A stretch of 64,000 bases of DNA, taken from NCBI GenBank assembly GCA_016937575.1, contig JAFHKN010000002.1:2604001-2668000 (forward strand), read 5' to 3'. Each line of letters starts with the position of its first letter. The first letter of the stretch is position 1. This document shows positions 14,200-30,078 of this stretch, in pieces. Under the pieces are notes generated by a model. That model saw nothing but the letters and a program-made list of their open reading frames with translations, searched no databases and was not told where the DNA came from. This DNA is from Roseomonas aeriglobus. GTDB taxonomy: Bacteria; Pseudomonadota; Alphaproteobacteria; Sphingomonadales; Sphingomonadaceae. Both the position numbers and the translations under genes were made by a program.

Positions 14200-14229
14200 C
14201 GATCTTTGTCCGAAAACCGGACGAGTGGA

Positions 14230-15485: not shown

Positions 15486-15938
15486 TTATTCGGGGAGCAG
15501 GCGAAGACCCCGAAGCGCCGCCAGCAATTGGCCGATCGCGGTTCTGGCTTGCGTATCAATGACATCCCCGCCGGACGGCATGGCGATGGCGGTCGCGGGC
15601 AGCTCGACGTGCCAGCCTGTATCCAGAAAGACGGCTCGGCGGCCGGTTTCACCGATGGTGACGGCGAAGCCCGGATGCGGCGCAACGAATCGCCAGCCGC
15701 CGATGGTCCAGCCGGCGACCGCATCGGCATGCCCGGTCCAGGCGCCGGTCGGCGTGGCGCCGACCACCCAGCAGTCGCCAAGGGCCGGATCGGTCGGCGG
15801 TGTGTTCACGCCGACAGCGGTGACGCTTGCCTGCACCGCCATCGCCAGCAGTGCGAGCGCTTCGTTGTGCGTCATTTCCTTCTGCGCCTGCCCGGGTACG
15901 AGCATCGGCAGCGCGAGGCGCGCGGTCGTATCGTTCAT
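15486..15938 (-). CDS. DUF2793 protein at the 3' end of the GTA cluster
   Basis: A 150-residue protein. ARLALPMLVPGQAQKEMTHN at the N-terminus and DPALGDCWVVGATPTGAW are hallmarks of DUF2793, a family found next to phage-like tail genes in alphaproteobacteria. It lies 17 bases downstream of the tail-tip gene and is the last member of the leftward GTA cluster. A tail-fibre or tip-associated role is plausible from position only. No terminator was recognised between it and ompA. Confidence 0.85.
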   Translation of the reverse strand: MNDTTARLALPMLVPGQAQKEMTHNEALALLAMAVQASVTAVGVNTPPTDPALGDCWVVGATPTGAWTGHADAVAGWTIGGWRFVAPHPGFAVTIGETGRRAVFLDTGWHVELPATAIAMPSGGDVIDTQARTAIGQLLAALRGLRLLPE

Positions 15939-15955
15939 CAGCTGTCCTTTCGGTT

Positions 15956-18079
15956 TCAGAGTGTCCGTCGTGCGGCGCGGGAGCGGGCGACGGTGCCGAT
16001 CTGCCGGACCTCGGCCGTCGGCGTGCCGCGTGGCCCGAGGGCTTCCGGCTGCGAGACGACCTGCGCCCCGCGTGCGTCATCGCCCAAGGTGACGAGATAC
16101 ATCTCGCTTTCCTCGGCGAGCGGCGTCGCGATGCCATCCGTCCAGTGCCAGCCGGCACGGCTGCGGCGGACCCAGGTGAGGCGTGCCACATCGCCGTCGT
16201 GCCGGACCGCGAGATGCACCGGCGCCGGCGGGGCGACCGATGCGCCGCCGATCGGCGCCGACGCGCCTATCGCCGCACCGACATCGCCGACCCCGCTTGC
16301 CATCACCTGCACTTCCGTACCGATCGTCGTGACCGGCAGGTCGAGCGTCACAAGAGTATCGGGTTCGAGGAGCACGAAGCGGTCGCCGGCCACTGACCGC
16401 CCGATCGCGCCTTCGGTACCTCGGCGGCCGCGCCACAAGGTCGTCAGGCGCCACCGCGTCGCGTCGATCCGCTCCGCCGACCCGAACTGCACGAGTTCGT
16501 CGCCGACCAGCGCGAGGTTGGCCCCTCGGGCCAGGCTCGTCGTATCGGCATCGGCAAGTGTCATCTCGGCATGAGCCAGAGCCACGACGACCGCGCCGGC
16601 CCGGTCCTCGAGCGTCGATGCCCCCGCCCCCGGCGGAGTGACGACCGTGCCCAGAACGGCGGGACCGGCCGTCATGCCCTGCGGCAACCAGCTCGTCCCG
16701 CCGTCCAGGCTCAGCTGGAGTGCCGCGCTGCGCCAGCCGGGGCTTGCGCCCGCCGCGGCAATTGTCAGTCGAGGCGTGGTCAGCACCGCGTCGTCGAACG
16801 GCGGAATCTCGAAGGCATGAACGATCGTCGGACCGACGACCCGATCGGGCGCCGCCGCCACGCTGCCCGAGGTTGCCGGAGCGGCGACGGGGCGGCGGAC
16901 GACGCGGATGAGCTCCACCGTCAGTACCATCGCCTCCAGCGTCGCCTCGACCACCCGCCACAGGCCCGGTTCGCCGGCGATCGTCACGCGGTCGCCGGGC
17001 ACCAGCGCAAGCGACCGCCAGTCGAGCGACACCGTCCGGCGCTCGCGCTCGATGTCGATCCGGGAGAGTGCCGCCGCCGCCAGCCTCTTCGCCGCTGCGG
17101 CATCGATCGCAGCGGGCAGCTCGATCGCCAGCTCCCGCGCCCCGGCGCCCGCCCGGCGGATGCGCTGCAGCCCGACCTGATAGTCGCGCGCGGGGTCGTG
17201 GTGCTGTAGCGTGATCGCGCGCGGCGCGCTGTCGGCCGCGGCAAAACTGCGCGCCCGCCGTGCCCCCCGCCCGGCGCCGGTGTCGCCGATCGTCACGCTC
17301 GTCCCCGGCCCCGATCGCGCCTCCAGTCGCGCGCCATCGCTCCGCAGCCACGCGCCGCTCACCTGGAGCATCGCGTCGCTCGGCCCGCGCACGGTGTCGC
17401 CATAGCCGGAATAGCCCGACAGCAGCGTGCCCGTCGCCCCGTCGATGACACCCCCGGACAATCCGCGCAGGATCTCGGCGGCATCGACCGGCCCGGCGTC
17501 GGCGGTCACTTCGAAGGTCAGCGACGGGATGCGATTGCCGAAATCCGCCAGCGCCAGATCCTCGAACACCGCATAGGCCAGCCCGCGGAACGCCGGCGTC
17601 GTCCCGGCCCCTTGCGCCGACACGATCAGCGGATCGACCGCCTGCGCCTCGCCGCCCGGATGCCACCGGAACTGCGTCGCCGATTTGAAGTCCCCCGCCG
17701 TCCCGCGCAGCAGCTTGCCGTCCGCCCAGATCCGCCCGATCGACAGGATCGGCCGCGCCGACAAGGCGACGGCGAAGGAGGCGGAATAGGAATAGCGCGT
17801 GCTTCCCGCCCTTCCCTTGCCGCCGCCGTCGCGCGCGACATGTTCGATCAGCTCGGTCGACCAGATGACGGTCCCAGCGACGCGCATCGTCCCGAAGATC
17901 CTGGGGATCGGCGTGCCGTAGGACGAGCTCTGCACGGCCAGGTCGGTCAGCCGCGGCCCGTCGCGCCCCGTGCCGCGGAACACCCGCTGGTCGATCGCCT
18001 GCCCCGCCATCGCGCCCAGCGCCCCGCCGATCGGCCCGCCCAGCGCCGTGCCGACCGCGGTCAGAATTACCGTCGCCAT
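15956..18079 (-). CDS. GTA tail tip/host-specificity protein (g15-like), short form
   Basis: A 707-residue protein. It opens with a glycine-rich hydrophobic stretch (TALGGPIGGALGAMAGQAID) and then YGTPIPRIFGTMRVAGTVIW, which resembles the phage tail protein (Phage-tail_3 / megatron) region of RcGTA g15. RcGTA g15 is about 1300 residues with an N-terminal TIM-barrel-like domain before this region; that part is absent here. The protein should form the central fibre/tip that contacts the recipient cell. Its start lies one base after the peptidase gene stop. Confidence 0.88.
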   Translation of the reverse strand: MATVILTAVGTALGGPIGGALGAMAGQAIDQRVFRGTGRDGPRLTDLAVQSSSYGTPIPRIFGTMRVAGTVIWSTELIEHVARDGGGKGRAGSTRYSYSASFAVALSARPILSIGRIWADGKLLRGTAGDFKSATQFRWHPGGEAQAVDPLIVSAQGAGTTPAFRGLAYAVFEDLALADFGNRIPSLTFEVTADAGPVDAAEILRGLSGGVIDGATGTLLSGYSGYGDTVRGPSDAMLQVSGAWLRSDGARLEARSGPGTSVTIGDTGAGRGARRARSFAAADSAPRAITLQHHDPARDYQVGLQRIRRAGAGARELAIELPAAIDAAAAKRLAAAALSRIDIERERRTVSLDWRSLALVPGDRVTIAGEPGLWRVVEATLEAMVLTVELIRVVRRPVAAPATSGSVAAAPDRVVGPTIVHAFEIPPFDDAVLTTPRLTIAAAGASPGWRSAALQLSLDGGTSWLPQGMTAGPAVLGTVVTPPGAGASTLEDRAGAVVVALAHAEMTLADADTTSLARGANLALVGDELVQFGSAERIDATRWRLTTLWRGRRGTEGAIGRSVAGDRFVLLEPDTLVTLDLPVTTIGTEVQVMASGVGDVGAAIGASAPIGGASVAPPAPVHLAVRHDGDVARLTWVRRSRAGWHWTDGIATPLAEESEMYLVTLGDDARGAQVVSQPEALGPRGTPTAEVRQIGTVARSRAARRTL

Positions 18080-18080
18080 G

Positions 18081-18461
18081 TCACTTCTCCCCTCGCCAGC
18101 GCGCCAGCACCGGCCACGGCGGCACGCCGGGCCGCTCGACGACGCGGCGCAGGCCAGCGTCGGCGTGGATCAGCCCCGCCCCGCTATCGATCCCCAGATG
18201 CAGCTGGCCGGGCCCGGTCGCGACCAGCACGACGTCGCCCGCCCGCGCCACATCGACCGCAACCAGGCCCAGCGCTGCCGCTCCCCGCACCACCACCGCC
18301 GGGTCGCCCGTCCGCAGCCGGTATCCGGTCGGCACCGGCAGCCCCCATGCCAGCGCCACGAGCCCCACGCAGTCGAGCCCGCGCGCGTCGCGCCCGTGCA
18401 GCCGGAACGGCGTCCCCACCGCCGCCCGCGCCCGGGCCACGGCGTCGTCCCCCGCGCTCAT
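18081..18461 (-). CDS. NlpC/P60-type peptidase of the GTA tail (g14-like)
   Basis: A 126-residue protein from the ATG at 18461, overlapping the upstream stop (ATGA). The NlpC/P60 catalytic cysteine is in GRDARGLDCVGLVALAWG, and the His in GPGQLHLGIDSG. In RcGTA, g14 is a cell-wall peptidase in the tail tip that helps DNA entry. It is a little shorter than RcGTA g14 but has the core fold. Confidence 0.9.
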   Translation of the reverse strand: MSAGDDAVARARAAVGTPFRLHGRDARGLDCVGLVALAWGLPVPTGYRLRTGDPAVVVRGAAALGLVAVDVARAGDVVLVATGPGQLHLGIDSGAGLIHADAGLRRVVERPGVPPWPVLARWRGEK

Positions 18462-19267
18462 GCCGAGGGATAGCGCGTCAGCAGGTCGATCCCCGGCAGG
18501 AACGGCTCGCCGCGAAAGTTCACCGCATTGCCGAACCGCCCCGCACAGGTTGCCAGGCTCTTGTCGCACCCTTCGATCATCTCGCACCGGTCCCCCGGCA
18601 CGATCGGATAGCGCGCCACGCCGGCGATCCGCACGACCGCGCCCTCCGCGGTCGCCACGACATCCTCCAGCCCGCTGTTCGCCCCGTCGAGACAGCGCAG
18701 CCGCCCGCCGGCCCAGCCACCCGCGACCGCCGGCCCGGCATCGAGCGTCACCGCATCGTCGACGACTCCCAGAACCCGCGCGATCCGCCGCCGCCCCGCC
18801 ATCGCCACGCGGCAGCGCCGATCGCCCAGCTCGGCGCGACATTCGGGCGAGGTCGTCTCGCTGGCCGGCGCATCGAGCGCCGCGCCGCGACCGCGCAATT
18901 CGGCGGTGAAACGCCCGTCCGCGGTCTCGATCGCGCCCAGCACGCCGTCGCCCAGCGCGACGCGGTTCGCCGGATCGGTCCAGTCCACCGCAAAGATCGC
19001 GACCGCTGCGCCGTCCCACCGCCCGCCGAGCAGGTCGTCCTCGGTGATCGCCCCGCTCGTCAGCGCCCCCGCCACGTCCATCGTGTCGGCCCGCCCCGGA
19101 TCGCGCCGCCGGATCGCCGAGGGCGTCATGCCCGGCGCCGCGCGATAGACGTTGCCGTCGATCACCAGGTCGCGATCATGCGCGGTCAGCCCGATCGCGA
19201 TCCCGTCGCGCCGCTCGATCCGCCAGCACAAGGCAAGCGTGGTCAGCGGCCCCTCCAGCCAACTCAT
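18458..19267 (-). CDS. GTA tail hub protein, DUF2163 (g13-like)
   Basis: A 269-residue protein with the DUF2163 / phage_BR0599 pattern: LTTLALCWRIERRDG and GLTAHDRDLVIDG at the N-terminus, AELRGRG in the middle, and a cysteine-rich C-terminal part (ECRAELGDRRCRV; GDRCEMIEGCDKSLATCAGR; NAVNFRGEPFLPG). In RcGTA the corresponding hub proteins carry an iron-sulfur cluster bound by conserved cysteines, and the cysteines here would allow this. It overlaps g12 and g14 neighbours by ATGA junctions. Confidence 0.92.
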   Translation of the reverse strand: MSWLEGPLTTLALCWRIERRDGIAIGLTAHDRDLVIDGNVYRAAPGMTPSAIRRRDPGRADTMDVAGALTSGAITEDDLLGGRWDGAAVAIFAVDWTDPANRVALGDGVLGAIETADGRFTAELRGRGAALDAPASETTSPECRAELGDRRCRVAMAGRRRIARVLGVVDDAVTLDAGPAVAGGWAGGRLRCLDGANSGLEDVVATAEGAVVRIAGVARYPIVPGDRCEMIEGCDKSLATCAGRFGNAVNFRGEPFLPGIDLLTRYPSA

Positions 19268-21540
19268 GCCTCGCGCACCTCGACCAGCGGCACCGATGGC
19301 GCCTCGCCTGCCAGAAACGTCGCCCGGTTCACGCTCAGGCTGTCCTCGGCAAAACGCACCGGTACATCGAAGTCGAAACTCGCCGTCACCACTGCTCCCG
19401 CGGCGGGCGGCGCATCGAACGCGACCTGCCCACCGGCCTCCAGCGTAAAGGCTGACGTTGCCGCACCGTTCACGAAGACGCTGAGCGTCCCCGGCGTCGG
19501 CCGCGTGATCCGCCGCACGATGCCCTCGTACCGCTTTACGAGGGCGAACCGCATCCGCGCCCCGTCGCCGGTTCCCAGCCGCTCGCCGACCACGCGCCAG
19601 TCGAACGGATCACGAAGGCGGAACGCCCGCGCCGGTCCCAGCCGCGCACGGTAGAAGGCAAGCAGCTGCGCGATATCCGCCTCGCTGCGCACGCCCGGCC
19701 CGACATCATATCGCGCCCGCGCCTGTTCCCAGGCGGCGTTGCGCGCCTCATGCCCGCCGGCACTGGCGACGATCGCGGTCGAATGTTCCGCCACCACCGC
19801 GACCTCCTGACCCAGCGCCAGCGGAAAGCGCACGTCGTCGAAAGCGATCACATCGTCCTCCCCGTCGAAATGGACAAATCCGTCACGCATCACCTGCGGC
19901 AGCGCCCAGATGAAGGTCCGCGCCACCCCGCGGCTTTGCGCCCGCACCGCCGCGGCATCGATCGCCGCCCATTGCGCGCGGTCCTCCGGCTTCAGCACGA
20001 AACCGGCGAAATAATGCTGTTCCTCGACTGGATAGCCGAGCCGGTCCCCCGCCGCCGCGATCCCGCGCGCGGTCGCCGCCGGATTGTCGAGCGCACACCA
20101 GTCATAATCCTCGAGTTGCAGTACATCGAATGCCGGCTTGGCCCAGCCGACCGGCAGGTTCGCGCGCTTCGCCTCGGGCGCCAGCGGGTCGAGGATCGTC
20201 GGCAGATAGGCGAGCAGCAACGTCTCCGCGTCCGGTGCCACTGCCCGTACCGCCGCGGTCAGCGCCGCGGTCGACGCCGCCAGCATCGCACCCGCCGCAT
20301 CGAGCAGCGCGGTCTGCTGCGCATCCATCGGTGCGCGCATCGACGGGATCTCCACCGCCAGCGGCCCGAACGCCGCCCGCGCCGCCGTATCGTACAGGCA
20401 CGGTCGCCCATCGGGCATCGTCCACCACCACGGCTCGCCGACCTGGAAGCGCACTGTCATCCCGGCGTCTTGGGCAAGTCCGGCGAACGCCACCGCGACC
20501 GCCTGAAGATACGCCATCGCCGTGGCGTTGGCTGGAGACAGCAACGCCGACGGCGGCGCCCACCCCGTCCGCCCCGGCGCTCCGTCCCACGCGCATTGCT
20601 GCCACGCTGCCGGCGCATGGGCGGCGAACAGTTCGTAGGACAGCGACCAGATCAGCTCAAAGCCCAGCGCCTTCGCGCGACTGGCGAAATCGCGGTGCCA
20701 TGCCTGCGCCGCGACGTTCAGCGCACCGCCCGTCAACGTCGCGATCAACGCCGTTCCACTGTACGCGAGCCGGAAATAATGGCTCATCCCGACATAATGG
20801 TTGATCGCCCCGCGATACCCCAGGTGCAGCGCGTTGCGCAGCAGCCGCTCGGGCGTCAGGTGATAGCTGTCGTCATAACCGCTCGCGATCTCCAGCCCGT
20901 GCGCCGGCACGATCGTGTCGGCCAGCGACAGCACCGCGCCGGGGCCGTCACAGGCGATGTCGCTCAGTTCGACCCACCCCTCCTGCGGTTGCGCCAGCAT
21001 CGCGTCGCTGGCGTCGTACGCCGGCGGGACCAGCGACACGAACATTCGGTCGACATCGCCCGCGAACACCGGATCGGCCTCGCCCGGCAAGGTGAAGCCG
21101 CCCGACACCGCCGCGAAATCGATCGCGATCGTCGCATCCTCCGGCGTGCCCTGCGCGTAATTCCACAGCCGCACATACCAGGCGCGCGGCGCCCCATCGG
21201 CGTCGCGCCCCTCGATCGTCAGCGTGGGCCCGTGGATCGCATCCAGCGCCTTGACCCCGTCCGACCGCCAGCGAAACCGCAGCCGACAGTCGCGGAAATC
21301 GCGCACGGTTTCATAGGCGAGCAGCGGATGGTCGTGGCGATCCTCCGCGTCCCAGATCAGCCCGGCCAGGTCGTCCTTGCGATAGAAGACGGCATCGACG
21401 CGCAGCGCGGTCTCGCTGGTCGTCACCACGCTCGCCATCATCGGCCGCGGAAAATTGACCGTCCAGAACCGCGGGTCGAAGCGGTGGATATAGCTCTCGA
21501 TCCCGTCCTTCGGCCGGGCGGTGGCAAGCCAATGCGCCAT
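19264..21540 (-). CDS. DUF2460 distal tail protein with large N-terminal extension (g12-like)
   Basis: A 758-residue protein; the RcGTA g12 distal tail protein is only about 210. The C-terminal part (about 550-758) is the DUF2460 core: LLAFYRARLGPARAFRLRDP, DWRVVGERLGTGDG, then VKRYEGIVRRITRPTPGTLS. The N-terminal 540 or so residues are extra, with segments reminiscent of a glycoside-hydrolase TIM barrel (HLGYRGAINHYVGMSHYFRL; MTVRFQVGEPWWWTMPDG; LQLEDYDWCALDN; EEQHYFAGFVLKPEDRAQW) after a beta-rich start. Comparable long sphingomonad GTA proteins may be tail-sheath-like or carbohydrate-acting. It overlaps both neighbours. The C-terminal family is secure; the N-terminal role is inference. Confidence 0.85.
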   Translation of the reverse strand: MAHWLATARPKDGIESYIHRFDPRFWTVNFPRPMMASVVTTSETALRVDAVFYRKDDLAGLIWDAEDRHDHPLLAYETVRDFRDCRLRFRWRSDGVKALDAIHGPTLTIEGRDADGAPRAWYVRLWNYAQGTPEDATIAIDFAAVSGGFTLPGEADPVFAGDVDRMFVSLVPPAYDASDAMLAQPQEGWVELSDIACDGPGAVLSLADTIVPAHGLEIASGYDDSYHLTPERLLRNALHLGYRGAINHYVGMSHYFRLAYSGTALIATLTGGALNVAAQAWHRDFASRAKALGFELIWSLSYELFAAHAPAAWQQCAWDGAPGRTGWAPPSALLSPANATAMAYLQAVAVAFAGLAQDAGMTVRFQVGEPWWWTMPDGRPCLYDTAARAAFGPLAVEIPSMRAPMDAQQTALLDAAGAMLAASTAALTAAVRAVAPDAETLLLAYLPTILDPLAPEAKRANLPVGWAKPAFDVLQLEDYDWCALDNPAATARGIAAAGDRLGYPVEEQHYFAGFVLKPEDRAQWAAIDAAAVRAQSRGVARTFIWALPQVMRDGFVHFDGEDDVIAFDDVRFPLALGQEVAVVAEHSTAIVASAGGHEARNAAWEQARARYDVGPGVRSEADIAQLLAFYRARLGPARAFRLRDPFDWRVVGERLGTGDGARMRFALVKRYEGIVRRITRPTPGTLSVFVNGAATSAFTLEAGGQVAFDAPPAAGAVVTASFDFDVPVRFAEDSLSVNRATFLAGEAPSVPLVEVREA

Positions 21541-22112
21541 CAGTCCATCCCCTCCAGTGCCGCGCGCACCGCTCGCGCGACCTGGCGTGCCGATCGCGCG
21601 AGCATCGCAGGCGCTTCGCCGCTGCCAGCACCCGACGGCGCAGCGATGGTGATCGACACCCGCACGTCGCGCGCGCCGCCCCGTCCCCCCGCATCGGCCA
21701 CAACCCGCCCGCTGCTCGTCGGCACGAACAGCTCCGGCCCGCGCTCCCCGACCAGATAGGCCGCCCCCGGCGACACCGGCCCGCCGGTCGCGCGTCCCGG
21801 CAGGCCGAACGCGCCCGCCAGCACCGCCGCCAACCCGCCGCCACGGCCACCGCCGACTGCGGCGATGCCGGCCTTCAGCGCGGTCTCGGCGATCTCGCCC
21901 AGCACCGACAGCGCGACGCGGCGCAGATCCTCGAACCCCAGCTTGCCGGTCTGCACCGCACGCAACAGCCCTGCCTCCACCGCCCGCCCGGCGCGCGCGG
22001 CACCGGCCTCCATCGGGCCGTCCAGGCTGGCGCGCATGTCGGCGACATCGCGCGCAAACGCCGCCGTATCGGCGCGGACGCTGACGATCAGCCGTTCGAT
22101 TTCCTCATCCAT
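21540..22112 (-). CDS. GTA tail tape-measure protein (g11-like)
   Basis: A 190-residue protein. ERLIVSVRADTAAFARDVAD at the N-terminus and RATGGPVSPGAAYLVGERGP followed by ELFVP are the conserved ends of RcGTA-type tape-measure proteins; the middle is Ala/Gly-rich helix. Tape length sets tail length in siphophages, and this short version implies a short tail, as in RcGTA. The start overlaps the chaperone gene end by eight bases. Confidence 0.9.
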   Translation of the reverse strand: MDEEIERLIVSVRADTAAFARDVADMRASLDGPMEAGAARAGRAVEAGLLRAVQTGKLGFEDLRRVALSVLGEIAETALKAGIAAVGGGRGGGLAAVLAGAFGLPGRATGGPVSPGAAYLVGERGPELFVPTSSGRVVADAGGRGGARDVRVSITIAAPSGAGSGEAPAMLARSARQVARAVRAALEGMD

Positions 22113-22272
22113 CGGGATGGGCCTCCATCAATGTCGTGAGATCGGCGGACGTGAGGGTCGGCACGGTGTCGGCCGGATCGCCGAACAGTGCGGCGACCTC
22201 GGCCGGGGTGGCCGACCAGAACGTGTCGGGCGCCCATCCGACGCCAGCGCAGACGCGCCCGGCGAGCCGCAA
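22105..22272 (-). CDS. GTA tail assembly chaperone (g10.1-like)
   Basis: A small protein whose conserved part reads LRLAGRVCAGVGWAPDTFWS and ATPAEVAALFGDP, ending LMEAHPDG, which matches the TIGR02216-type phage tail assembly chaperone found between g10 and g11. A TTG at 22272, preceded by AGGGGG at a normal distance, gives 55 residues. The frame stays open into the upstream repeat, so the exact start is uncertain. The upstream neighbour is separated by a repeat insertion instead of the usual overlap. Confidence 0.72.
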   Translation of the reverse strand: MRLAGRVCAGVGWAPDTFWSATPAEVAALFGDPADTVPTLTSADLTTLMEAHPDG

Positions 22273-22287
22273 GGCAGCCCCCTGAAA

Positions 22288-22418
22288 ATCCTCCCCGGCA
22301 CGGGGAGGGGGACCAGCCGAAGGCTGGTGGAGGGGGGGCTCCACAGGCGACGTACTCGCGGCACGCCCCCTCCACCAAGCTGCGCTTGGTCCCCCTCCCC
22401 ATTCTGGAGAGGATCTGA
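22288..22418. repeat. Long palindromic repeat inside the GTA cluster
   Basis: A GC-rich inverted repeat of about 130 bases (outer arms around CCTCCCCGGCACGGGGAGG and CCCCTCCCCATTCTGGAGAGG; inner arms GGACCAGCC.../...GCTTGGTCC). It is closely similar to the element at 36564-36711. It fills the gap between g10 and the chaperone gene and is probably transcribed as a large hairpin. Confidence 0.75.
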
Positions 22419-22424
22419 CAGTCC

Positions 22425-22748
22425 TCACCGCCCCGCCAACACTTGTCGCAACACCTCGCGCAGCACCGGCGTCGCCGCCGCCAGTCCCCCCGCCACGATC
22501 GCCTCGCCGAACGCGTCGCGCGTCAGCCCCTCCGGCCGATCGCGCAGGCAATGCCAGAACAGCACGACCATCTCGCCGATCGCCAGTCGCCCGTCGGCCG
22601 CCCGCTCGACCAGAGCGAACAGCGGCCCCAATTCCCCCTCCGCCGCCACCAGCGCGGCAAAGGTCGGCCGCACCACCAGCACCTCGCCGCTCACGCGCAG
22701 CGCCGCTTCCCCCCGCGCGGGGTTCGCCCCAGGATCGACCGGCGTCAT
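22425..22748 (-). CDS. GTA g10-like protein
   Basis: 107 residues from the ATG at 22748 (ATGA overlap with the tail-tube stop). EAALRVSGEVLVVRPTFAAL and AAEGELGPLFALVERA, then LAIGEMVVLFWHCLRD, match the gene transfer agent family protein (DUF3356-like) that precedes the tape measure, probably the first tail assembly chaperone. Length equals RcGTA g10. It is coupled to the tail-tube gene. Confidence 0.85.
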   Translation of the reverse strand: MTPVDPGANPARGEAALRVSGEVLVVRPTFAALVAAEGELGPLFALVERAADGRLAIGEMVVLFWHCLRDRPEGLTRDAFGEAIVAGGLAAATPVLREVLRQVLAGR

Positions 22749-23152
22749 GCCGCCACCACCGCGCCCGAGCTTTCGAGCGCCAGCGTGTAGGTCCGCTCCC
22801 CGTTGAAGTCGCCGGCATAGTCCAGCCGGGTCAGCAGGAACCGCCCGGTCATCGTCTCGCCGCTTTCGAACGCCAGCCGATAATCGTCGATGCGCCCCGA
22901 CAGCGCGGACGTCTTCAACCGCGCCTCCGCCGCGCTGCCGGTGAACACGCCGGCGCCCGACACGCTGACCGACCGCACCCCCGCCCCGGACAGCAATTCG
23001 CGCCAGCCGCCCGAATCCTTGCTGGTGATCGCCACCATCTCGCCGTTGATGCTCAGCTGCGTCGTCCGCAGCCCCGCCACCGTCGCGAACGCGGGCGGGC
23101 TCGCCCCGTCGCCGACCTTCAACAGGAACGCACTTCCCTTCTCCGCCGCCAT
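22745..23152 (-). CDS. GTA major tail (tube) protein (g9-like)
   Basis: A 135-residue protein matching the TP901-1-type major tail protein: GSAFLLKVGDGASPPAFATV, GLRTTQLSINGEMVAITSKD, GWRELLSGAGVRSVSVSGAG and NGERTYTLALESSG. These form the hexameric rings of the tail tube. It has normal length for RcGTA-like clusters. A repeat separates it from the upstream tail-terminator gene, breaking the otherwise tight coupling. Confidence 0.92.
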   Translation of the reverse strand: MAAEKGSAFLLKVGDGASPPAFATVAGLRTTQLSINGEMVAITSKDSGGWRELLSGAGVRSVSVSGAGVFTGSAAEARLKTSALSGRIDDYRLAFESGETMTGRFLLTRLDYAGDFNGERTYTLALESSGAVVAA

Positions 23153-23171
23153 GTCCTTGTCCTCCTTCGTG

Positions 23172-23243
23172 ATTGGTCGCCCTCACCCTTCCGGCGCTTC
23201 GCGCCTCCCTCCCTCTCCCGATGGGAGAGGGAAAGGTGAGGAC
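23172..23243. repeat. Palindromic repeat inside the GTA cluster
   Basis: CGCCCTCACCCTTCCGGCGC-type element with inner palindrome CTCTCCCGATGGGAGAG. Nearly the same sequence occurs at 57292-57350 and 57768-57823. It lies between the tail-terminator and tail-tube genes. Confidence 0.8.
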
Positions 23244-23251
23244 GATGGGAC

Positions 23252-23653
23252 TCACCCAGTCGCCAGCATCCGCACCCGAAACTCGACCGCCGCGATCCAC
23301 CGCCCTGGTCCATCCCCGGCGATGCGGCTGCGCAGGAAGGCGATGCTCGCCACCCGCCATCCGGGCAGATCGCGCGACAGCCCCGGCACCGCCGCCTCGA
23401 CCGCGGTGACCAGCGTGCCGATCCGCGTGCTCGTCTCGGCCGCGTCGCGCAGGATCACCGCCAGTCGCAGCTCGCGGCCGGCGCGGTCCTTCGTTCCCCA
23501 GTCGCCTGCGACCGCCTCGCCAATCTCGGCATAGGGTGTGGAAGCGCGCACCGCGGGCCCCTCGACTACGCCGTTCAGCGTCGCCGCGAGCACCGGATCG
23601 GCGCGCAGCAGTGTCGCCAGCGCGGTCCGCGCCGCCGCCGTCGCCCCGCTCAC
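23252..23653 (-). CDS. GTA tail terminator, DUF3168 (g8-like)
   Basis: 133 residues from a GTG at 23653 that overlaps the upstream TGA. ALATLLRADPVLAATLNGVV is the DUF3168 N-terminus, and GDWGTKDRAGRELRLAVILR, then FLRSRIAGDGPGRWIAAVEF, follow. In RcGTA the g8 product forms the ring that ends the tail tube at the head side. The length fits. Confidence 0.87.
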   Translation of the reverse strand: MSGATAAARTALATLLRADPVLAATLNGVVEGPAVRASTPYAEIGEAVAGDWGTKDRAGRELRLAVILRDAAETSTRIGTLVTAVEAAVPGLSRDLPGWRVASIAFLRSRIAGDGPGRWIAAVEFRVRMLATG

Positions 23654-23826
23654 AACCCGTCTCGCAGGTTGCGCAGCCGCGCATCGGTCAACCACCGCGC
23701 GCGCAATCGGCGGCCGCTGACCGCCACGCCGTCTGCCGTCTCCTCGGCCCGCAGACCGGGAACGCTTGCCAGATACGCCGCCACCCGCCGACGCCACCGC
23801 GCTGCGGCCCGCTCGGCCGCGGTCAT
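23650..23826 (-). CDS. Small GTA-cluster protein in the g7 position
   Basis: 58 residues from an ATG that overlaps the upstream stop (ATGA); its own stop overlaps the next start (GTGA). The sequence begins TAAERAAARWRRRVAAYLAS and ends RWLTDARLRNLRDGL, very basic and helical. Both-sided coupling argues that it is translated. RcGTA has a head-tail adaptor (about 110 residues) at this position; this ORF is half that size and I see no clear adaptor motif. Confidence 0.6.
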   Translation of the reverse strand: MTAAERAAARWRRRVAAYLASVPGLRAEETADGVAVSGRRLRARWLTDARLRNLRDGL

Positions 23827-24308
23827 GCCCGCACCGTCGCGGACAGGCGCAGCCGCCGGAACGGCCGCCACAGCGCCGCGACCGCCGCGGGCGGGGCGCT
23901 CGCATCCGCGCGGTCGACATAGAGGTGCGCCGCCAGTCGCACGACACCTTGCGCGATCGCCGCCGGCACGCCGGCCTCATCCTCGGCGATCCCCGCGCGG
24001 TACGTGACCGGCACCGCCCCGCCGCCGGTCACCCGCACCCACCCCTCGCCTACCGGATCGATGTCGATCGCATAGACGCCCAGCGGCAGCGCCGGCGCGC
24101 CGACCTGTGTGATCGTCGCAACCGGTGCCGCCGCCAACCGGTGCCAGACGCCATCGGCCGGAACCGTTTCGGTCAACTCGCTGCGGATCAGCCGCTGGCC
24201 CAGGAACGCCTCGCACAGCCCCCGCGCACTCGCGACCAGCCCGGCGATCAGCGCGTCGTCCTGCGTCGTCTCCAGGCGCAGATACGCTTTCGTCTCGTCG
24301 ACGGTCAT
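23823..24308 (-). CDS. GTA head-tail connector protein (g6-like)
   Basis: 161 residues from the ATG at 24308, preceded by AAAGGACA. TVDETKAYLRLETTQDDALI and GLVASARGLCEAFLGQRLIR are typical of the phage gp6-like head-tail connector. The C-terminal helices contain VPAAIAQGVVRLAAHLYVDR. The protein would form the ring under the portal. It starts 11 bases after the putative spike gene and overlaps the small g7-position ORF. Confidence 0.88.
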   Translation of the reverse strand: MTVDETKAYLRLETTQDDALIAGLVASARGLCEAFLGQRLIRSELTETVPADGVWHRLAAAPVATITQVGAPALPLGVYAIDIDPVGEGWVRVTGGGAVPVTYRAGIAEDEAGVPAAIAQGVVRLAAHLYVDRADASAPPAAVAALWRPFRRLRLSATVRA

Positions 24309-24319
24309 GATGTGTCCTT

Positions 24320-24844
24320 TCAAAATGCCAGCGACAGCCGCGTGCGCGGCCGGACCAGATCCCAGCCCGCGCGGTCGAAGCGCACGTCGACCGCGCATCC
24401 CGGCGTGACGAGCGAACTGTCGAAGAACAGCGGCCCGGCGACGCCCGCGACCGTCCGGATCACCGCCGCGGTCCGGCGGCTGGGGCCGGTCAGATAGCGC
24501 AGCGTCGTCCCCACCCGTTCGATCCAGACGAAGTCGGCGACGTCGAACGAATAGGCGCGATACTCGCCGCGTTCGAACACCTCGACCGCGCCGCCGCGGT
24601 AGGCGATGGCATAGTCGATCCCGACATAGCCGGTGTCCTCGTCCGGGTTCGCGGTGACGCCGATCATCAGGCGATCGGTGTTTCCGACGCGCTTCGCCCG
24701 CAGCACGACGTCGCCGGTGATCGCCGCCACCGACTTGGCCGGCGCATCGAAACTGTCGTCGAACCCGCCGGTCTTGGTGATCCGCCACACCCCGCCGCCG
24801 CGCGAGGCGACCGTCGTGTTCTGGACCGCGACGATGGCGACCAT
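24320..24844 (-). CDS. GTA-cluster protein of unknown function next to spike base
   Basis: A 174-residue protein. Its ATG overlaps the spike-base stop (TGATG). It is predicted beta-rich and soluble, with no signal or membrane segment; recognisable stretches are GGVWRITKTGGFDDSFDAPA, IGVTANPDEDTGYVGIDYAI and RAYSFDVADFVWIERVG. In R. capsulatus the head spike has a base and a tip encoded by adjacent genes, so this could be the tip or a recipient-surface-binding module. I do not recognise the family. Confidence 0.65.
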   Translation of the reverse strand: MVAIVAVQNTTVASRGGGVWRITKTGGFDDSFDAPAKSVAAITGDVVLRAKRVGNTDRLMIGVTANPDEDTGYVGIDYAIAYRGGAVEVFERGEYRAYSFDVADFVWIERVGTTLRYLTGPSRRTAAVIRTVAGVAGPLFFDSSLVTPGCAVDVRFDRAGWDLVRPRTRLSLAF

Positions 24845-25107
24845 CAGTACAGGCCCACGATCGCTTGCGCGGTCGTGCCGCTCGCGCGCACGAACCGCGC
24901 GCGGATCGGCAGGATGGTGCCATCGGGCACGTTGAGCAGCGTCGCATCGCCGCCCGAGACACCCGCCAGCACGATCGTGCCCCCGGCGCCGACGTACAAT
25001 GCCTTGGGCACATCGCTCAGCGGACTGGTGTCATGCGGCACGATCGCCACGAGCCGCGTCGCCGGCGCGGACGGCGCGTCCGCGACGTTAAGAAAGGGAT
25101 CGGTCAT
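24844..25107 (-). CDS. Head spike base protein-like (RCAP_rcc01079 family)
   Basis: 87 residues from the ATG at 25107 (AGGA 8 bases upstream). ALYVGAGGTIVLAGVSGGDA, LLNVPDGTILPIRARFVRAS and GTTAQAIVGLY match the short GTA spike-base family as I know it. In R. capsulatus these proteins sit on the GTA head, help bind the recipient capsule, and are encoded away from the main cluster. Here the gene is within the structural operon just after the capsid gene. Confidence 0.75.
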   Translation of the reverse strand: MTDPFLNVADAPSAPATRLVAIVPHDTSPLSDVPKALYVGAGGTIVLAGVSGGDATLLNVPDGTILPIRARFVRASGTTAQAIVGLY

Positions 25108-25125
25108 TTCGAATGTCCTAGACAA

Positions 25126-25225
25126 AGCCCCTCCCCTTCAGGGGAGGGGTTGGGGTGGGGCGGTGCGGCAAGCCCGTCGGACGGAGACGGCTACGCCGCT
25201 CCGCCGCCCGGCCTTGCCGAGTCCG
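25126..25225. repeat. GC-rich repeat inside the GTA cluster
   Basis: Starts with CCCCTCCCCTTCAGGGGAGGGG and continues with a second imperfect palindrome around GTCGGACGGAGACGGC. It occupies most of the gap between the capsid gene and the spike-base gene and should form a hairpin in the mRNA downstream of capsid. Confidence 0.65.
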
Positions 25226-25233
25226 CTGGCGGC

Positions 25234-26277
25234 TCAGTTGGCGGAGAACCGCAAAACCTTGATCGCCTCGCTGTTGCTGACGGCCCCGCCCACCCGCTTC
25301 GTCGCATAGAAATGCACGAACGGCTTGTTGCTGTACGGATCGCGCAGGATCTGCGTCTCGGTGCGCTCGGCGATCAGATAGCCCGCCTTGAAGTTGCCGA
25401 ACGCGATCGACAGGCTGTTGGCGGCAATGTCGGGCATGTCCTCGGCCTCGACCACCGGATAGCCGAGCAGAGTCGCCGGCTGCCCCGCCGCCAGGCTCGG
25501 CGCCCACAGGAACTGGCCGTCGCTCGTCTTGAACTTGCGGAGGCGCGCCAGCGTCGCCGAATTCATCACGAAGCTCGCCCCCTGCCGGTACGGCGCACGC
25601 AAGGATTGGACGAGATCGATGAGCCGTTCCTCCGGGTTCGCCGCAAACGCCCCCGCCGCTCCGGTCGGCAGATATTGCAGCGTCCCGAATGCCCGCGCGG
25701 CATCGCCCGTCGTCGCGACCGCGCTGCTCAGGAAGCCCTTCGGCCGGTTCGCCCCGTTACCCGACACGAATGCCGCCCCTTCGGCGCGCGCGAATTCGGT
25801 CGCGATCTCGCCTGCCAGCCACTCCTCGACGTCGAAGCTCGCGTCATCGAGCATCGCCTGGCTCGCCGCCGGATTGGCGTAGAGCTCGCCCATCGGCGGT
25901 GCGATCTCGTTGAAGGTCGGCGTCGCCGTTTCCGGCCGGCCGCCCGTCTCCCCCGACCAGCCCGACGGCGTGCCGCCGCTGGTCACCAGCTTGCGATATC
26001 CGGCGCTGCCGACCTTAACGATGTTCGCAATGGCGCGGATCGGCGAGATGCTCGCCAAGGTCGCGTCGATCGCCGCATCGATCTCGCGCGGCACCGCATA
26101 GCCGCCTGCAGCATCGCTGGTCCCGGACAGCGCCTTCATCTCGACGACGCTGCCCGACCGCACGAAGCTCGCAAAACCGCCGCGCGGCGCACTTCCCCCG
26201 CTCAACAGCGGCCGCGCGCCCGCCACGCCCAGCCCTTCCACCGCGGCAAAGCTCGCCGCCAGATCGGTCCCACTCAT
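25234..26277 (-). CDS. GTA major capsid protein, HK97 fold (g5-like)
   Basis: 347 residues from the ATG at 26277, chosen because GGGAG lies 6 bases upstream; an ATG two codons earlier overlaps that site. HK97 capsid features include GGYAVPREIDAAIDATLASI, SPIRAIANIVKVGS, SGWSGETGGRPETATPTFNE and LLGYPVVEAEDMPDIAANSL, ending TKRVGGAVSNSEAIKVLRFS. The preceding propeptide/delta domain is short. The gene is preceded by a strong intrinsic terminator-like hairpin. Confidence 0.95.
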   Translation of the reverse strand: MSGTDLAASFAAVEGLGVAGARPLLSGGSAPRGGFASFVRSGSVVEMKALSGTSDAAGGYAVPREIDAAIDATLASISPIRAIANIVKVGSAGYRKLVTSGGTPSGWSGETGGRPETATPTFNEIAPPMGELYANPAASQAMLDDASFDVEEWLAGEIATEFARAEGAAFVSGNGANRPKGFLSSAVATTGDAARAFGTLQYLPTGAAGAFAANPEERLIDLVQSLRAPYRQGASFVMNSATLARLRKFKTSDGQFLWAPSLAAGQPATLLGYPVVEAEDMPDIAANSLSIAFGNFKAGYLIAERTETQILRDPYSNKPFVHFYATKRVGGAVSNSEAIKVLRFSAN

Positions 26278-26291
26278 TCCCATCTCCCACC

Positions 26292-26325
26292 AAAAAAGGG
26301 CGCCGAACCGACCGGTCCGACGCCC
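26292..26325 (-). terminator. Intrinsic terminator between prohead protease and capsid genes
   Basis: On the minus strand GGGCGTCGGACC, loop GGTC, GGTTCGGCGCCC form a 12-bp stem with two wobble pairs, followed at once by TTTTTT (26297-26292). It lies 23 bases after the protease stop and 15 bases before the capsid start, inside a cluster that otherwise reads as one transcription unit. It could limit or gate read-through into capsid and tail genes. Confidence 0.85.
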
Positions 26326-26347
26326 ACCAAAAGCCCTGTAAAATCCG

Positions 26348-26719
26348 TCAGTCCGACACGGCATGCACCCGTGCGAGCGGCTGCATCGGCTGCGCGACCA
26401 GGCTCACCTCGAGGAGCGCCACACGCCTGAGTTCCCGCCGCACGCCATGCCGCGCCTCCAGCGTGCGGTATCCGATCGACAGCCCGTCCACCGCGCCCGC
26501 CGCGACCAGCCGGGCAAGCTCGGGATCGTCGACCGACCCGATCGCCCGCAGCCCCCGCGCATCCTCCGCGACCGTCACCGACCCGACCGGGCGCCCGCGA
26601 TGCTGCCACAGCAAGGGCACCGTCCCCGCCCCCGCGAACGCCCCCCGTCGAATGACATCGCCCCCGCGATCCGGCGCATCGAACACCGCCGCGTAGCCCG
26701 CGAACCCTACCGCAGCCAT
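26348..26719 (-). CDS. HK97-family prohead protease (g4-like)
   Basis: 123 residues from the ATG at 26719. FAGYAAVFDAPDRGGDVIRR is the S78 prohead protease N-terminus, LLWQHRGRPVGSV contains the catalytic His, and VDGLSIGYRTLEA contains the catalytic Ser. It processes the capsid delta domain during head assembly. It overlaps the small g3.5-like gene by 13 bases. It is somewhat shorter than RcGTA g4 but has the core motifs. Confidence 0.9.
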   Translation of the reverse strand: MAAVGFAGYAAVFDAPDRGGDVIRRGAFAGAGTVPLLWQHRGRPVGSVTVAEDARGLRAIGSVDDPELARLVAAGAVDGLSIGYRTLEARHGVRRELRRVALLEVSLVAQPMQPLARVHAVSD

Positions 26720-26967
26720 TCGCCGAACCCGGTCTTCACCGCGATCCCGACCAGCAGCAGCGCCAACACCAGCCGCACCACCCAGCCCAGCGCCGCGCGC
26801 ACCGCCGATCGCTTGGCATCGCGCCACGCCCTGAGCAGCTCGCGCAGTTCCGCCAGGTCGCCATGCGCCGCATCGTCGGCCAGCCCCAACCGGGCCAGCG
26901 CGCGCGCCGTACCCAGCTCGACCGCTTCCTCGACGACCAGCCGCAACTCGTCGCGCCCCGCACTCAT
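26707..26967 (-). CDS. Small membrane-anchored GTA protein (g3.5 position; DUF6127-like)
   Basis: 86 residues from an ATG overlapping the portal stop (ATGA). RDELRLVVEEAVELGTARAL and LARLGLADDAAHGDLAELRE are helical, followed by a C-terminal membrane helix (LGWVVRLVLALLLVGIAVKT). Similar small genes lie between portal and protease in RcGTA-type clusters. Its role in particle assembly is unknown. Confidence 0.78.
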   Translation of the reverse strand: MSAGRDELRLVVEEAVELGTARALARLGLADDAAHGDLAELRELLRAWRDAKRSAVRAALGWVVRLVLALLLVGIAVKTGFGEWLR

Positions 26968-28055
26968 GCCCCGATCCCCAGCATCGCGCGCTTCTCCTCC
27001 ACGCTCAGAAAGTCCGCCGCGGTCACCGACGCCCAGGCGCTCGCCCGGTCCTCCGCCAGCGCCGGCACCTTGTCGACGTCGACCGCCACCGCGGCATCGG
27101 CGAACCATGGCCGCAGCCCCTGACCCAGGCCCGACAGGATCGTCCCCGCCAGCGGCAGCACCGCCAGCCGCCACAACGCCCGGTTCGCCTCGCGGTAATT
27201 GGCGTAGGTCGCGTCACCGGGCAGCCCCAGCAGCATCGGCGGCACGCCGAACGCCAGCGCGATTTCCCGCGCCGCCGCCGCCTTCAGCCCGACGAAGTCC
27301 ATGTCGGCGGGCGTCAGGCTCATCGCCTGCCATTTCAGGCCGCCCTCCAGCAGCATCGGCCGCCCGGCATTGGCCGCGCCTGCGAACCCTGCATCCATCT
27401 CGGCGCGCAACCGGTCGAACTGCTCCGCCGACAGCGCGGCGCCATCGCCGGGCTCATAGACCAGCGCACCGGACGGCCGCGCGGCATTGTCGAGCAGCGC
27501 CTTGTTCCACCGCGTCGCCGCATTGTGGATCGCGACCGCGCCGGCCGCCGCGCCCAGACACCCAAGGCCATAATGGTCGTCGAGCGGGTGGAACGCCTTC
27601 AGGTGCACCACCTCCTCGACCGACAACCGCACGGCGCGTTCGCCGACGCGGTAGCGGAACGCGACCGGCCAGCCGCTGGCGTCCGCCTCGATCGTCACCC
27701 GCTCGGGGCGCAACGCATAGAGCTCGCCGACGCCCCCCTGCCCGTCCCCGATCAGCTGGACATACGCATTGCCGTGCAACAGCAATTGCGCCGCCACCAC
27801 CTCCAGCAACGCCTGCCCGCCCGATCGCGCGGTGACGAGCGTCGCCAGCGCGGGGTCGGACGCGGTCAGGGGCGCCCATCCGACGCTCTCCGCCACCAGC
27901 CGCACCGCCCGCTGCGCCACCGGGTTCGCCGCATAGCCGCTGCGCACCTGCGCCTCGTAACTCGTCGGCCATTCACCGATCGCGCCGCCCGAAGCCCCAC
28001 GCGCCAACGCCGGACGCGACGCATCGCGCCCGGACTTTCGCCCGAACAATTTCAT
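26964..28055 (-). CDS. GTA portal protein (g3-like)
   Basis: 363 residues from the ATG at 28055 with GGGAGCG upstream; a TTG five codons earlier is unlikely. HK97-type portal motifs: NPVAQRAVRLVAESVGWAPL, LLHGNAYVQLIGDGQGGVGE, LYALRPERVTIEADASGWPV, HLKAFHPLDDHYGLGCLGAA and FGVPPMLLGLPGDATYANYR. The dodecameric portal is the DNA entry port of the head. A repeat element separates it from the large terminase. Confidence 0.94.
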   Translation of the reverse strand: MKLFGRKSGRDASRPALARGASGGAIGEWPTSYEAQVRSGYAANPVAQRAVRLVAESVGWAPLTASDPALATLVTARSGGQALLEVVAAQLLLHGNAYVQLIGDGQGGVGELYALRPERVTIEADASGWPVAFRYRVGERAVRLSVEEVVHLKAFHPLDDHYGLGCLGAAAGAVAIHNAATRWNKALLDNAARPSGALVYEPGDGAALSAEQFDRLRAEMDAGFAGAANAGRPMLLEGGLKWQAMSLTPADMDFVGLKAAAAREIALAFGVPPMLLGLPGDATYANYREANRALWRLAVLPLAGTILSGLGQGLRPWFADAAVAVDVDKVPALAEDRASAWASVTAADFLSVEEKRAMLGIGA

Positions 28056-28076
28056 GTTGATCGCTCCCAAAACAAT

Positions 28077-28196
28077 TCCTCCCCTGCAAGGGGAGGTGGC
28101 AGCCCGCAGGGCTGACGGAGGGGTGTCGAGCTATCCGGACAAGGTGACACCTCTCCGTCGCGCTAACGCGCGCCACCTCCCCTTCCAGGGGAGGAT
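28077..28196. repeat. Palindromic repeat between terminase and portal genes
   Basis: About 120 bases with inverted outer arms (CCCCTGCAAGGGGAGGTGGC ... GCCACCTCCCCTTCCAGGGG) and an inner GGAGGGGTGTC/GACACCTCTCC pair. A close copy lies at 31934-32051. It is transcribed within the GTA cluster. Confidence 0.8.
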
Positions 28197-28203
28197 AGGC
28201 CCG

Positions 28204-29535
28204 CTACAACCCCCGCACCCCCGCGACCGCACGCCGCCCGAGCATCAGCTCCGTCACCGCCCACACCAGCGCGTCCGCGCGATCCGGCGACCGACCCGGC
28301 CCTTCATACGCCCCGCCGGCCAGCAGACCGCACAGTTCGTCCTCCAGCGCCGGAAACGCGCCGACATGCCGCATCCGCCCGCGTTCGTAGAGCGTCGCGA
28401 CCGGCTCGGCGCGCGTCACCTTGCCGCGGCTGGCGTGGACCAGCTTCAGCGGCAGGCGCGTATCGGCGGCCAGCAGCACGCTCTTCACCATGTCGCCGCC
28501 CTGGTTCTTCTCGGCGACGACGCGGTCGGCCTTGTGTCGCAGGGCGCAGCCTGCCACTGCCGCGGCCCAGCCCTCGGGCGACGCGCCGGCCACGCTCGCA
28601 TCCTCGACGACATACCCGATGCCGTCCGCCCCCAGCGCCACCGCGACGATCCCGCAGGCATCGCCCTCCGACCCCGCCGGCGGATCGACCCCGACGACGA
28701 CACGCACGACCCGCGCCCGCCGCCGCTTGACCCGACACGCCTCCAGCCGCCCCCGCGACCACAACGCCCCCTCGACATCGTCGATCAGTTCGCCGTCCAG
28801 CTCCTGCCGCCCCAGCCGCGTGCCGCCATATTCGCTGAGCATCGCCGCGACGAAACTTGGCGGCAGGTGTACGTTGTCCCGCGTCGTCCCCCGCATGACG
28901 CTTTTCGTCGCCGCCGCCTCCCGCTCGATCGCGCGCAGCAGCGCCCCCGGTTTCGGCGTCGTCGTCACCAGCACCTGGGGGTGGTCGCCCAGCCGCAGAC
29001 CCATCCGAAGATTGTCCCACGCCGCCTTGGCCGTGCCATGCCGCCATTTCGCCAGCTCGTCGCACCACGCCAGATGATGCTCCGGCCCGCGCAGGCTTTC
29101 GGGCGCAGCGGCGGAATAGACGAAGGCCTTGGCGCCGGAGGCGAATTCGATTTCGCCGCGATCACGGCGCCAGATGACGGCTTCGTCATCGCGGGCGACC
29201 GACAACAGGCCGGCCGCGCCTTCGATCATGACGCGGCACACATCGTCTCCGGTGCCGCCAACCAGCGCGAACCGCCCCTCGGGCATCGTGCGCGCCTTCT
29301 CGCTCAACCATTCCGCGCCCGCCCGCGTCTTGCCAAAGCCGCGACCGGCCATGATCAGCCAGATCCGCCAATCGCCATCCGGCGCGACCTGCCCGGTGTG
29401 ACCGTGCCGCTCCCAGCGTTCCGTCAGTTCCCGCTTCTCCGGCCAGGGCATCTTGCTCAGGACCCAGGCCTGCTCCTCGGGTGTCCGCCCGACCAACAGG
29501 TCCAGCGCATCGCCGGCTCGCGCGCCAGCGGTCAC
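28204..29535 (-). CDS. GTA large terminase (g2-like)
   Basis: 443 residues from a GTG at 29535 overlapping the small terminase stop (GTGA); the frame remains open upstream. It begins TAGARAGDALDLLVGRTPEE. Walker A is MAGRGFGKTRAGAEWL, and Walker B/catalytic Glu lie in HHLAWCDELAKWR. The coupling segment is VLVTTTPKPGALLRAI. The C-terminal nuclease domain has VVGVDPPAGSEGDACG and VAEKNQGGDMVKSVL. It packages headful DNA fragments; GTAs use host DNA without a strict start site. Confidence 0.94.
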   Translation of the reverse strand: MTAGARAGDALDLLVGRTPEEQAWVLSKMPWPEKRELTERWERHGHTGQVAPDGDWRIWLIMAGRGFGKTRAGAEWLSEKARTMPEGRFALVGGTGDDVCRVMIEGAAGLLSVARDDEAVIWRRDRGEIEFASGAKAFVYSAAAPESLRGPEHHLAWCDELAKWRHGTAKAAWDNLRMGLRLGDHPQVLVTTTPKPGALLRAIEREAAATKSVMRGTTRDNVHLPPSFVAAMLSEYGGTRLGRQELDGELIDDVEGALWSRGRLEACRVKRRRARVVRVVVGVDPPAGSEGDACGIVAVALGADGIGYVVEDASVAGASPEGWAAAVAGCALRHKADRVVAEKNQGGDMVKSVLLAADTRLPLKLVHASRGKVTRAEPVATLYERGRMRHVGAFPALEDELCGLLAGGAYEGPGRSPDRADALVWAVTELMLGRRAVAGVRGL

Positions 29536-30011
29536 GCTTGCTCCTGCGACGCCCGCCGCGCAAGCGCGGCAAGCTGCTTCAGGATCGTCGCATCGGTTTC
29601 CGCCTGCGTGGCGCGCCGCACCTTTGGCCCGCCACGCCCCCTGGGCTCTGTGCGACGGGCATCCCGCATCTTCAGAAGCGTGATGGCAAGGGTCGGATCG
29701 ACCGCCGTTCCCGCCGCGTCGCCAGCTTCCTGCGCGATCAGCGCTTTCGACGCCAGATCGATCAGGGAGAGTTCGATCCGGTCGTACCCGGCCTGCAACG
29801 CTGCGTCCCATTGCGCCGCGAAGGCCGGATCGCGTCGCCGCAACTGATAGGCGCCGCGCGTCGACATGCCGACGGCGGCGCAGGATTTCGTGACATTGCA
29901 CGACGTCATCAGCAGATCGAAAAATGCCTCGCGCTTGTCCGGCGTCCAGCCATCGCAGCGCCAGGTCCATCGCCCCGCCGTGTCCCCCGTCGCCCCATCC
30001 ATGTCCGCCAT
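29532..30011 (-). CDS. GTA small terminase-like protein (g1-like)
   Basis: 159 residues from the ATG at 30011, preceded by GGGGGAG. WTPDKREAFFDLLMTSCNVT and KSCAAVGMSTRGAYQLRRRD form a helix-turn-helix of the terminase small subunit type, with AFAAQWDAALQAGYDRIELS after it. GTA small terminases differ from phage ones in not recognising a specific pac site. It is the first gene of the cluster, downstream of a TTGACA promoter and a long leader hairpin. Confidence 0.88.
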   Translation of the reverse strand: MADMDGATGDTAGRWTWRCDGWTPDKREAFFDLLMTSCNVTKSCAAVGMSTRGAYQLRRRDPAFAAQWDAALQAGYDRIELSLIDLASKALIAQEAGDAAGTAVDPTLAITLLKMRDARRTEPRGRGGPKVRRATQAETDATILKQLAALARRASQEQA

Positions 30012-30030: not shown

Positions 30031-30078
30031 GCGAACGGGCCGGCCGCGGCTTTGGTGAAGCCGCGCCAGCCCGTTCGC
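30031..30078 (-). other. Long hairpin in the leader of the GTA transcript
   Basis: Outer 10-bp stem (GCGAACGGGC with GCCCGTTCGC), small internal loop, inner 8-bp stem (CGCGGCTT with AAGCCGCG) and a 5-base loop. It ends 20 bases before the small terminase ATG and lies just upstream of its ribosome binding site. No U-tract follows, so it is more likely a regulatory leader structure than a simple terminator. Confidence 0.75.

Follow-up and report, generated by a model that had tools for sequence, protein, structure and literature searches.

A probable RcGTA-like gene transfer agent cluster with an N4-type tail module in Roseomonas aeriglobus

We analysed a stretch of 64,000 nucleotides (the window) from the 4.28-Mb genome of Roseomonas aeriglobus (contig JAFHKN010000002.1, positions 2604001-2668000), in which a head-tail gene cluster runs on the minus strand from 30011 to 15486. 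It is very likely, judged from its sequence, that this is an intact, host-maintained gene transfer agent (GTA) cluster of the lineage typified by the Rhodobacter capsulatus GTA (RcGTA), in the form carried by Sphingomonadales. Its product would probably be a domesticated particle of viral origin that transfers host DNA from cell to cell.

Gene content and conservation

The twenty leftward genes that an earlier note had proposed between 15486 and 30011 were confirmed by their open reading frames (ORFs) and by their operon-like spacing: neighbouring genes overlap or lie at most 20 bp apart at 14 of 19 junctions, and gaps of 70-152 bp separate them at the other five. Family searches of the cluster proteins (Pfam, NCBIfam, PHROG) recognised the large terminase subunit (TerL), portal, HK97 protease, HK97 capsid, g6, g8, g9, GTA-gp10, g10.1/Rcc01693, DUF2460, g13, NlpC/P60, megatron and DUF2793. 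All eleven RcGTA-like marker genes considered under the GTA-Hunter rule (g2-g6, g8, g9, g12-g15; PMC6821227) were found in this one operon, g14 by a weak match only. The GC content of the cluster is 71.6% compared to 67% in the flanks, and its GC skew is strong. Both features match the description of GTA clusters in PMC9836097.

As far as sequence comparison can tell, the cluster is open and under purifying selection. Its nearest named relatives are found in the Sphingomonas metagenome-assembled genome (MAG) SP166_2 (g12 93% identical) and in Sphingomonas sp. Leaf33 (g12 83%). Against the former, all 20 genes align and their aligned parts are stop-free, with an omega of 0.04-0.28 for 19 genes and of 0.47 for the small terminase subunit (TerS). 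Against Leaf33, 18 genes align, again stop-free, with an omega of 0.12-0.38 (TerS, 0.51). The gene order recurs in relatives, and the downstream neighbour is an OmpA-family gene in all of the 20 same-genus stretches and in 24 of the 26 named loci. We took open genes, purifying selection and a conserved place as marks of host maintenance and found all three, the last with a conserved downstream flank and an upstream flank that is often not conserved. The claim that integrase and replication genes are absent was upheld over the 20 genes of the cluster and 20 genes of its flanks: Pfam scans of the latter (selected ORFs, window 55-47081) detected no integrase, replication or phage lysis gene. The absence of lysis genes, claimed as well, holds for the cluster; elsewhere in the genome, an orphan pair of a GH108 endolysin gene and a GTA_holin_3TM gene is located beside hslV/hslU, 1.6 Mb from the cluster, with no phage gene among five scanned neighbours.

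The overall gene order is that of RcGTA, as the earlier note had stated and as the family searches bear out, except that two more genes, for a spike base protein and for an orphan of 174 aa, stand between g5 and g6, that g12 is a fusion, and that g15 has about half the length. The genes with clear family matches, apart from those discussed below, are g2 (TerL; 28204..29535; PF03237, PF17289), g3 (portal; 26964..28055; PF04860, 3.3e-72), g3.5 (DUF6127; 26707..26967; PF19622), g4 (HK97 prohead protease; 26348..26719; PF04586), g5 (HK97 major capsid protein; 25234..26277; PF05065, TIGR01554), g6 (head-tail connector; 23823..24308; TIGR02215), g8 (tail completion/terminator; 23252..23653; PF11367), g9 (tail tube; 22745..23152; PF06199), g10 (GTA-gp10 assembly chaperone; 22425..22748; PF11836), g13 (baseplate hub; 18458..19267; TIGR02218) and the gene for a DUF2793 protein (15486..15938; PF10983). 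For g10.1 (Rcc01693 family; 22105..22272; PF09550), the start is uncertain and TIGR02216 stays under its cut-off. The profile searches suggested earlier as a check thus identified most genes and gave weaker results for two: g11, a putative short tape measure (21540..22112), matched phrog_30701, a family of unknown function, and more weakly some tape-measure families, and g14, the NlpC/P60 peptidase (18081..18461), matched phrog_329 and, under its cut-off, PF00877 (2e-4). No family match was obtained for g7 (23650..23826), which was assigned by position; its ORF is kept in the named loci L073 (91%) and L074 (75%). The key catalytic motifs, previously described as intact, were spotted by eye in TerL (Walker A, GRGFGKT), the protease (GLSIGY) and g14 (LDCVGL). 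Palindromic repeats occupy operon gaps at 22275-22425 and 28077-28195, the first of which is a member of a repeat family dispersed over the genome (84 matches, both strands counted). A search for RNA families found none in the window.

Tail, spike slot and small terminase

The designation as RcGTA-type, also made before, agrees with the marker genes, but four features depart from it: an N4-type sheath/TIM module in g12, a megatron without TIM region, a spike slot inside the cluster, and a TerS of another family with a predicted helix-turn-helix (HTH). The product of g12 (19264..21540) has 758 aa and combines three domains, namely NCTSP_N (residues 18-206; PF23844), a sheath TIM barrel (212-555; PF23845) and a DUF2460 distal tail protein (568-756; PF09343). 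Its matches in the PDB were N4 gp64, N4 gp65, RcGTA Rcc01695 and the R4C distal tail protein, and its fold was also compared using an AlphaFold2 (AF2) model, Foldseek and VIA-align. By sequence and by fold match to gp64/gp65, the N-terminal domain and TIM barrel of g12 are of the N4 non-contractile tail sheath kind. Among 56 alphaproteobacterial genomes with DUF2460, drawn by sampling from 385, only four carry this domain in a frame as long as g12, and all four belong to its own family. A second, diverged g12-type gene was seen in two genomes (G047, locus L065; G058:C6), with megatron matches near both second copies.

Judged from profile alignment, g15 (15956..18079; 707 aa) is a shortened relative of the RcGTA megatron, about half as long. 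It matches NF048004 in two stretches, scoring 382 bits, below the curated cut-off of 800 for a full-length megatron, and roughly residues 215-870 of the megatron have no coherent counterpart. A relocation of the TIM barrel from g15 to g12 was considered and is not claimed, since the profiles of the g12 and megatron TIM regions matched with a probability of 0.6%, close to the 0.3% of a reversed control. The megatron is not among the matches listed in the g12 structure comparison, which excludes nothing. Nor is a megatron without TIM region claimed as peculiar to Sphingomonadales: a class-wide scan of 142 genomes gave a match in 25, of which 13 were over the cut-off, and outside the order some megatrons likewise matched by their ends only, though in frames of about 1,120-1,300 aa (G092, G145, G156, G159, G174 and one copy in G101).

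Between g5 and g6 lies a gene for a head-spike base protein of the RcGTA Rcc01079/GhsA family (24844..25107; NF048002, 1.5e-30, 105.3 bits versus a curated cut-off of 28). It is followed by the 174-aa orphan (24320..24844), which from its position (that of GhsB) we infer to be a putative head fibre. The orphan has an omega of 0.17 and no match in Pfam, NCBIfam or PHROG; a search of 5.8 billion database proteins, sensitive only to relatives with common short exact words, retrieved 19 homologues. The slot varies among relatives. A spike base gene is present in L034, L045, L049 and L053 of 40 loci and in L073 and L091 of the 26 named loci, standing alone in the slot of L034 and beside unrelated ORFs of 412 and 489 codons in L045 and L049, respectively. 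The slot measures just 74-319 bp in 13 of the 16 same-genus stretches that have both of its ends, and 66 bp in Leaf33, which lacks both genes. In other genera it is filled by other genes or empty.

The first gene, g1 (29532..30011), encodes a TerS of 159 aa (phrog_4044) with a predicted N-terminal HTH. The prediction derives from the conserved columns of alignments of 22 and 17 sequences and is matched by an AF2 model, in which residues 21-80 reach a predicted local distance difference test score of ~92 and helices 24-37, 40-47 and 51-60 have high confidence. Its top Foldseek match is the TerS of phage Sf6 (prob 0.96, E 0.1); a Pfam scan of g1 gave no HTH match. The TerS of RcGTA is described as having no N-terminal HTH, and random packaging has been proposed to result from this loss (PMC6854486). 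Because of the predicted HTH, g1 is not classed as a GTA-type TerS in that sense, and the same feature favours a rival reading, namely a capsid-making element that still packages specific DNA (a pac-like site or another mobile element), i.e. a helper or dedicated packager rather than a random GTA. We consider this unlikely. The analysis identified no packaged element, and a fixed target is hard to reconcile with a TerS that evolves faster than any other gene of the cluster. Furthermore, long small terminases also occur in RcGTA-like clusters of other orders. From 20 such stretches, 14 had a TerL match, the upstream ORF was examined in 11, and nine were scanned (without L209 and L214): six of these nine match the small terminase family phrog_1206, beginning at its N-terminal end, yet Pfam detected an HTH over the cut-off in only one (L197), while the rest look HTH-like by eye. 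An HTH TerS is not claimed as a Sphingomonas peculiarity, and these long phrog_1206-type proteins suggest that an HTH-less TerS is probably not general across RcGTA-like clusters. The two types differ, since the Sphingomonas HTH profile gave only one marginal match (E 0.005) in the other-order stretches.

Leader, regulators and loss in relatives

Upstream of TerS, on the same strand, we found a conserved 34-nt leader motif (30101..30134), a putative regulated promoter or initial transcribed region. It is identical in MAG SP166 and has 2 mismatches in Leaf33; in relatives' loci with a located TerS (40, including a few genomes twice) it lies, where found (at most 9 mismatches), 47-220 nt before the assigned TerS start. 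Neither the rest of the window (up to 11 mismatches allowed) nor the lysis locus L217 (up to 9) holds a further copy, and L035 has one chance-like match, 3.2 kb from TerS. Between motif and TerS, a leader hairpin (30031..30078; minus strand) could act as a terminator or attenuator. Its folding energy is -47 kcal/mol (z -5.2; L073, z -5.3; L074, z -6.6), and 13 of 31 non-redundant leaders fold within the lowest 5% of their own locus, compared to about 1.6 expected. A DMP19-like gene (30233-30871) separates dapF from TerS; its SP166 counterpart has 59% identity, and the Leaf33 stretch gave no match.

The only DUF6456 protein of the genome is encoded 4.6 kb upstream of the cluster (34602..35063; minus strand; PF20057, 1.3e-42). 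This domain, which we take to be the C-terminus of GafA, marks it by sequence as a GafZ-like candidate activator. DUF6456 and g12 occur together in 34 genomes, and in 14 of the 19 that have both on one contig they lie within 21 kb of each other. A gene for an XRE-family regulator and candidate repressor (35155..35718; plus strand; PF01381/PF13560) is divergent from it, as in L037, L053, L056 and L064; a Pfam scan of this protein did not match an S24 domain. Strict co-occurrence of the cluster with DUF6456 or the three-transmembrane (3TM) holin was not borne out by genome scans. In Caulobacter, GafZ carries polymerase past the terminator of the GTA operon, and RogA represses gafYZ (PMC11150451, PMC9632790). 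By analogy, we infer a similar control at the Sphingomonas leader, which would make it a compact test case for the antitermination model.

A working particle could then arise as follows. The GafZ-like factor would activate transcription at the conserved leader and help polymerase past the leader hairpin. TerS and TerL would pack host DNA into small HK97-type heads, whose vertices, in strains with both genes, may carry spike pentamers and the fibre. Six g12 subunits would form a distal tail ring bearing six N4-type sheath/TIM modules; these may bind and possibly cut surface polysaccharide, replacing the role of the megatron's three missing TIM barrels. The products of g13-g15 would breach the envelope, and particles might leave the producing cell by means of the orphan endolysin-holin pair.

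Several observations weigh against an intact, host-maintained GTA with these components. No more than 20 of the 40 TerS loci yielded the leader motif, and by an ungapped hairpin score just 10 of 31 leaders rank in the top 5% of their own locus. Of 38 genomes with a g12 TIM match, 4 lack DUF6456 (G025, G049, G056, G059), and 15 genomes have it without such a match; members of the holin family were likewise seen in relatives that lack the cluster. The HTH predicted for TerS is contrary to RcGTA, and the AF2 model is poor over the C-terminal third of g12. Upstream, dapF was recovered from just 4 of the 20 same-genus stretches and from 6 of the 26 named loci, low counts that are partly owed to stretches that end early. 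Finally, the g12 TIM family is full-length in 24 of 36 same-genus relatives, partial in one (G034) and not found in 11; six of the 36 carry remnants with internal deletions (G011, G021, G026, G029, G030, G034), and six further ones have no megatron match, three of these being incomplete assemblies. Pseudogenisation across close relatives, which the earlier note had named as evidence against its reading, was thus found in part, whereas the two nearest relatives are stop-free. Loss is evidently tolerated: by sequence, some lineages have lost the cluster, and in R. aeriglobus it is open. The remnants indicate loss elsewhere rather than decay here. A decaying prophage remnant, complete in appearance only, might be suspected from these remnants and the fast divergence of TerS (50% identity versus 94% for the portal), but is more improbable still than specific packaging, given the stop-free genes with an omega well under 1, the gene order and downstream neighbour common to relatives, and the 20 scanned flanking genes, which gave no integrase or replication gene.

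Related sequences also turned up in other records. Locus L076, titled Arthrobacter sp. TPD3018, holds a Sphingomonas-type cluster with OmpA, YgfZ, pyrC and dapF as neighbours and is probably mislabelled. A match over 53% of the cluster, with 74.8% identity, was obtained in NZ_CP155752.1 (H41), a 395-kb Sphingomonas parapaucimobilis replicon that is recorded as a plasmid. In a pattern scan of IMG/VR, at least 595 stretches encode a g12 relative, and 53 of 80 retained contigs (L115-L194; median length about 14.8 kb) hold 14 or more of the 20 genes; GTA clusters thus seem to be catalogued there as viruses. One scaffold from human faeces, MT840053.1 (L195; 5.4 kb; titled 'Bacteriophage sp.' and unannotated), is a g9-g15 fragment of such a cluster. 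In the 52.7-kb viral contig L189, phage head and portal-like genes (1-9250; Mu-like by eye) are joined to g10.1-g15 (9250-15577), representing either a prophage inserted into a GTA cluster or a hybrid.

Comparison with known systems

GTA clusters of Sphingomonadales are already known (PMC9662315, PMC6821227), and Sphingomonas AAP5, of the same genus, has a complete contiguous one (PMC8067484); its description, as consulted, gives no tail architecture, spike slot or leader. In the titles and abstract openings listed from the literature on sheath/TIM barrels with phage, GTA or Sphingomonas, on spike genes and on the TerS HTH, we did not find this architecture; judged on these, the details of tail, slot, terminase and leader seem to have no earlier description, although the in-cluster spike genes may already be in print. 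A case somewhat short of even can be made for a distinct Sphingomonadales GTA class with a six-copy N4-type glycosidase sheath replacing the megatron barrels, an exchangeable spike cassette, GafZ-like antitermination at the leader, and an HTH TerS with general packaging. The GTA structures and mechanisms considered here derive from Rhodobacter and Caulobacter. Should the Sphingomonas clusters be functional, recipient recognition would follow different rules, and clusters that seemingly retain the DNA-binding domain of TerS would make the link between domain loss and random packaging testable.

With RcGTA (rcc01682-rcc01698), the cluster shares the head-tail gene set and order, the HK97 capsid, DUF2460, hub and NlpC/P60 proteins, the megatron ends, the spike base family and an ectopic endolysin-holin pair (listed for RcGTA in PMC8601537). 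It differs by the N4-type sheath/TIM module of g12, the megatron without TIM region, the spike base gene within the cluster, the longer TerS with a predicted HTH, and a GafA-like domain that is free-standing and near the cluster. Two features resemble the regulation of the Caulobacter GTA (CcGTA; GafY, GafZ, RogA, terGTA): the DUF6456 gene, which is GafZ-like, and a candidate terminator at an early position of the operon. However, the hairpin precedes the first gene, whereas the CcGTA terminator follows it; no GafY was recognised adjacent to the Sphingomonas gene, and the XRE protein, in which no S24 domain matched, may not correspond to RogA. The tail sheath of coliphage N4 (gp64-gp65; PDB 9LC0, 9YF4, 9YF5) is matched by g12 in two parts: gp65 is aligned with profile positions 6-90 and 213-257, and gp64, which preserves the GEPWWW and EDYDW segments, with positions 273-554. 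In contrast to N4, the g12 sheath is one chain, fused to a distal tail protein and encoded in a siphophage-type GTA cluster.
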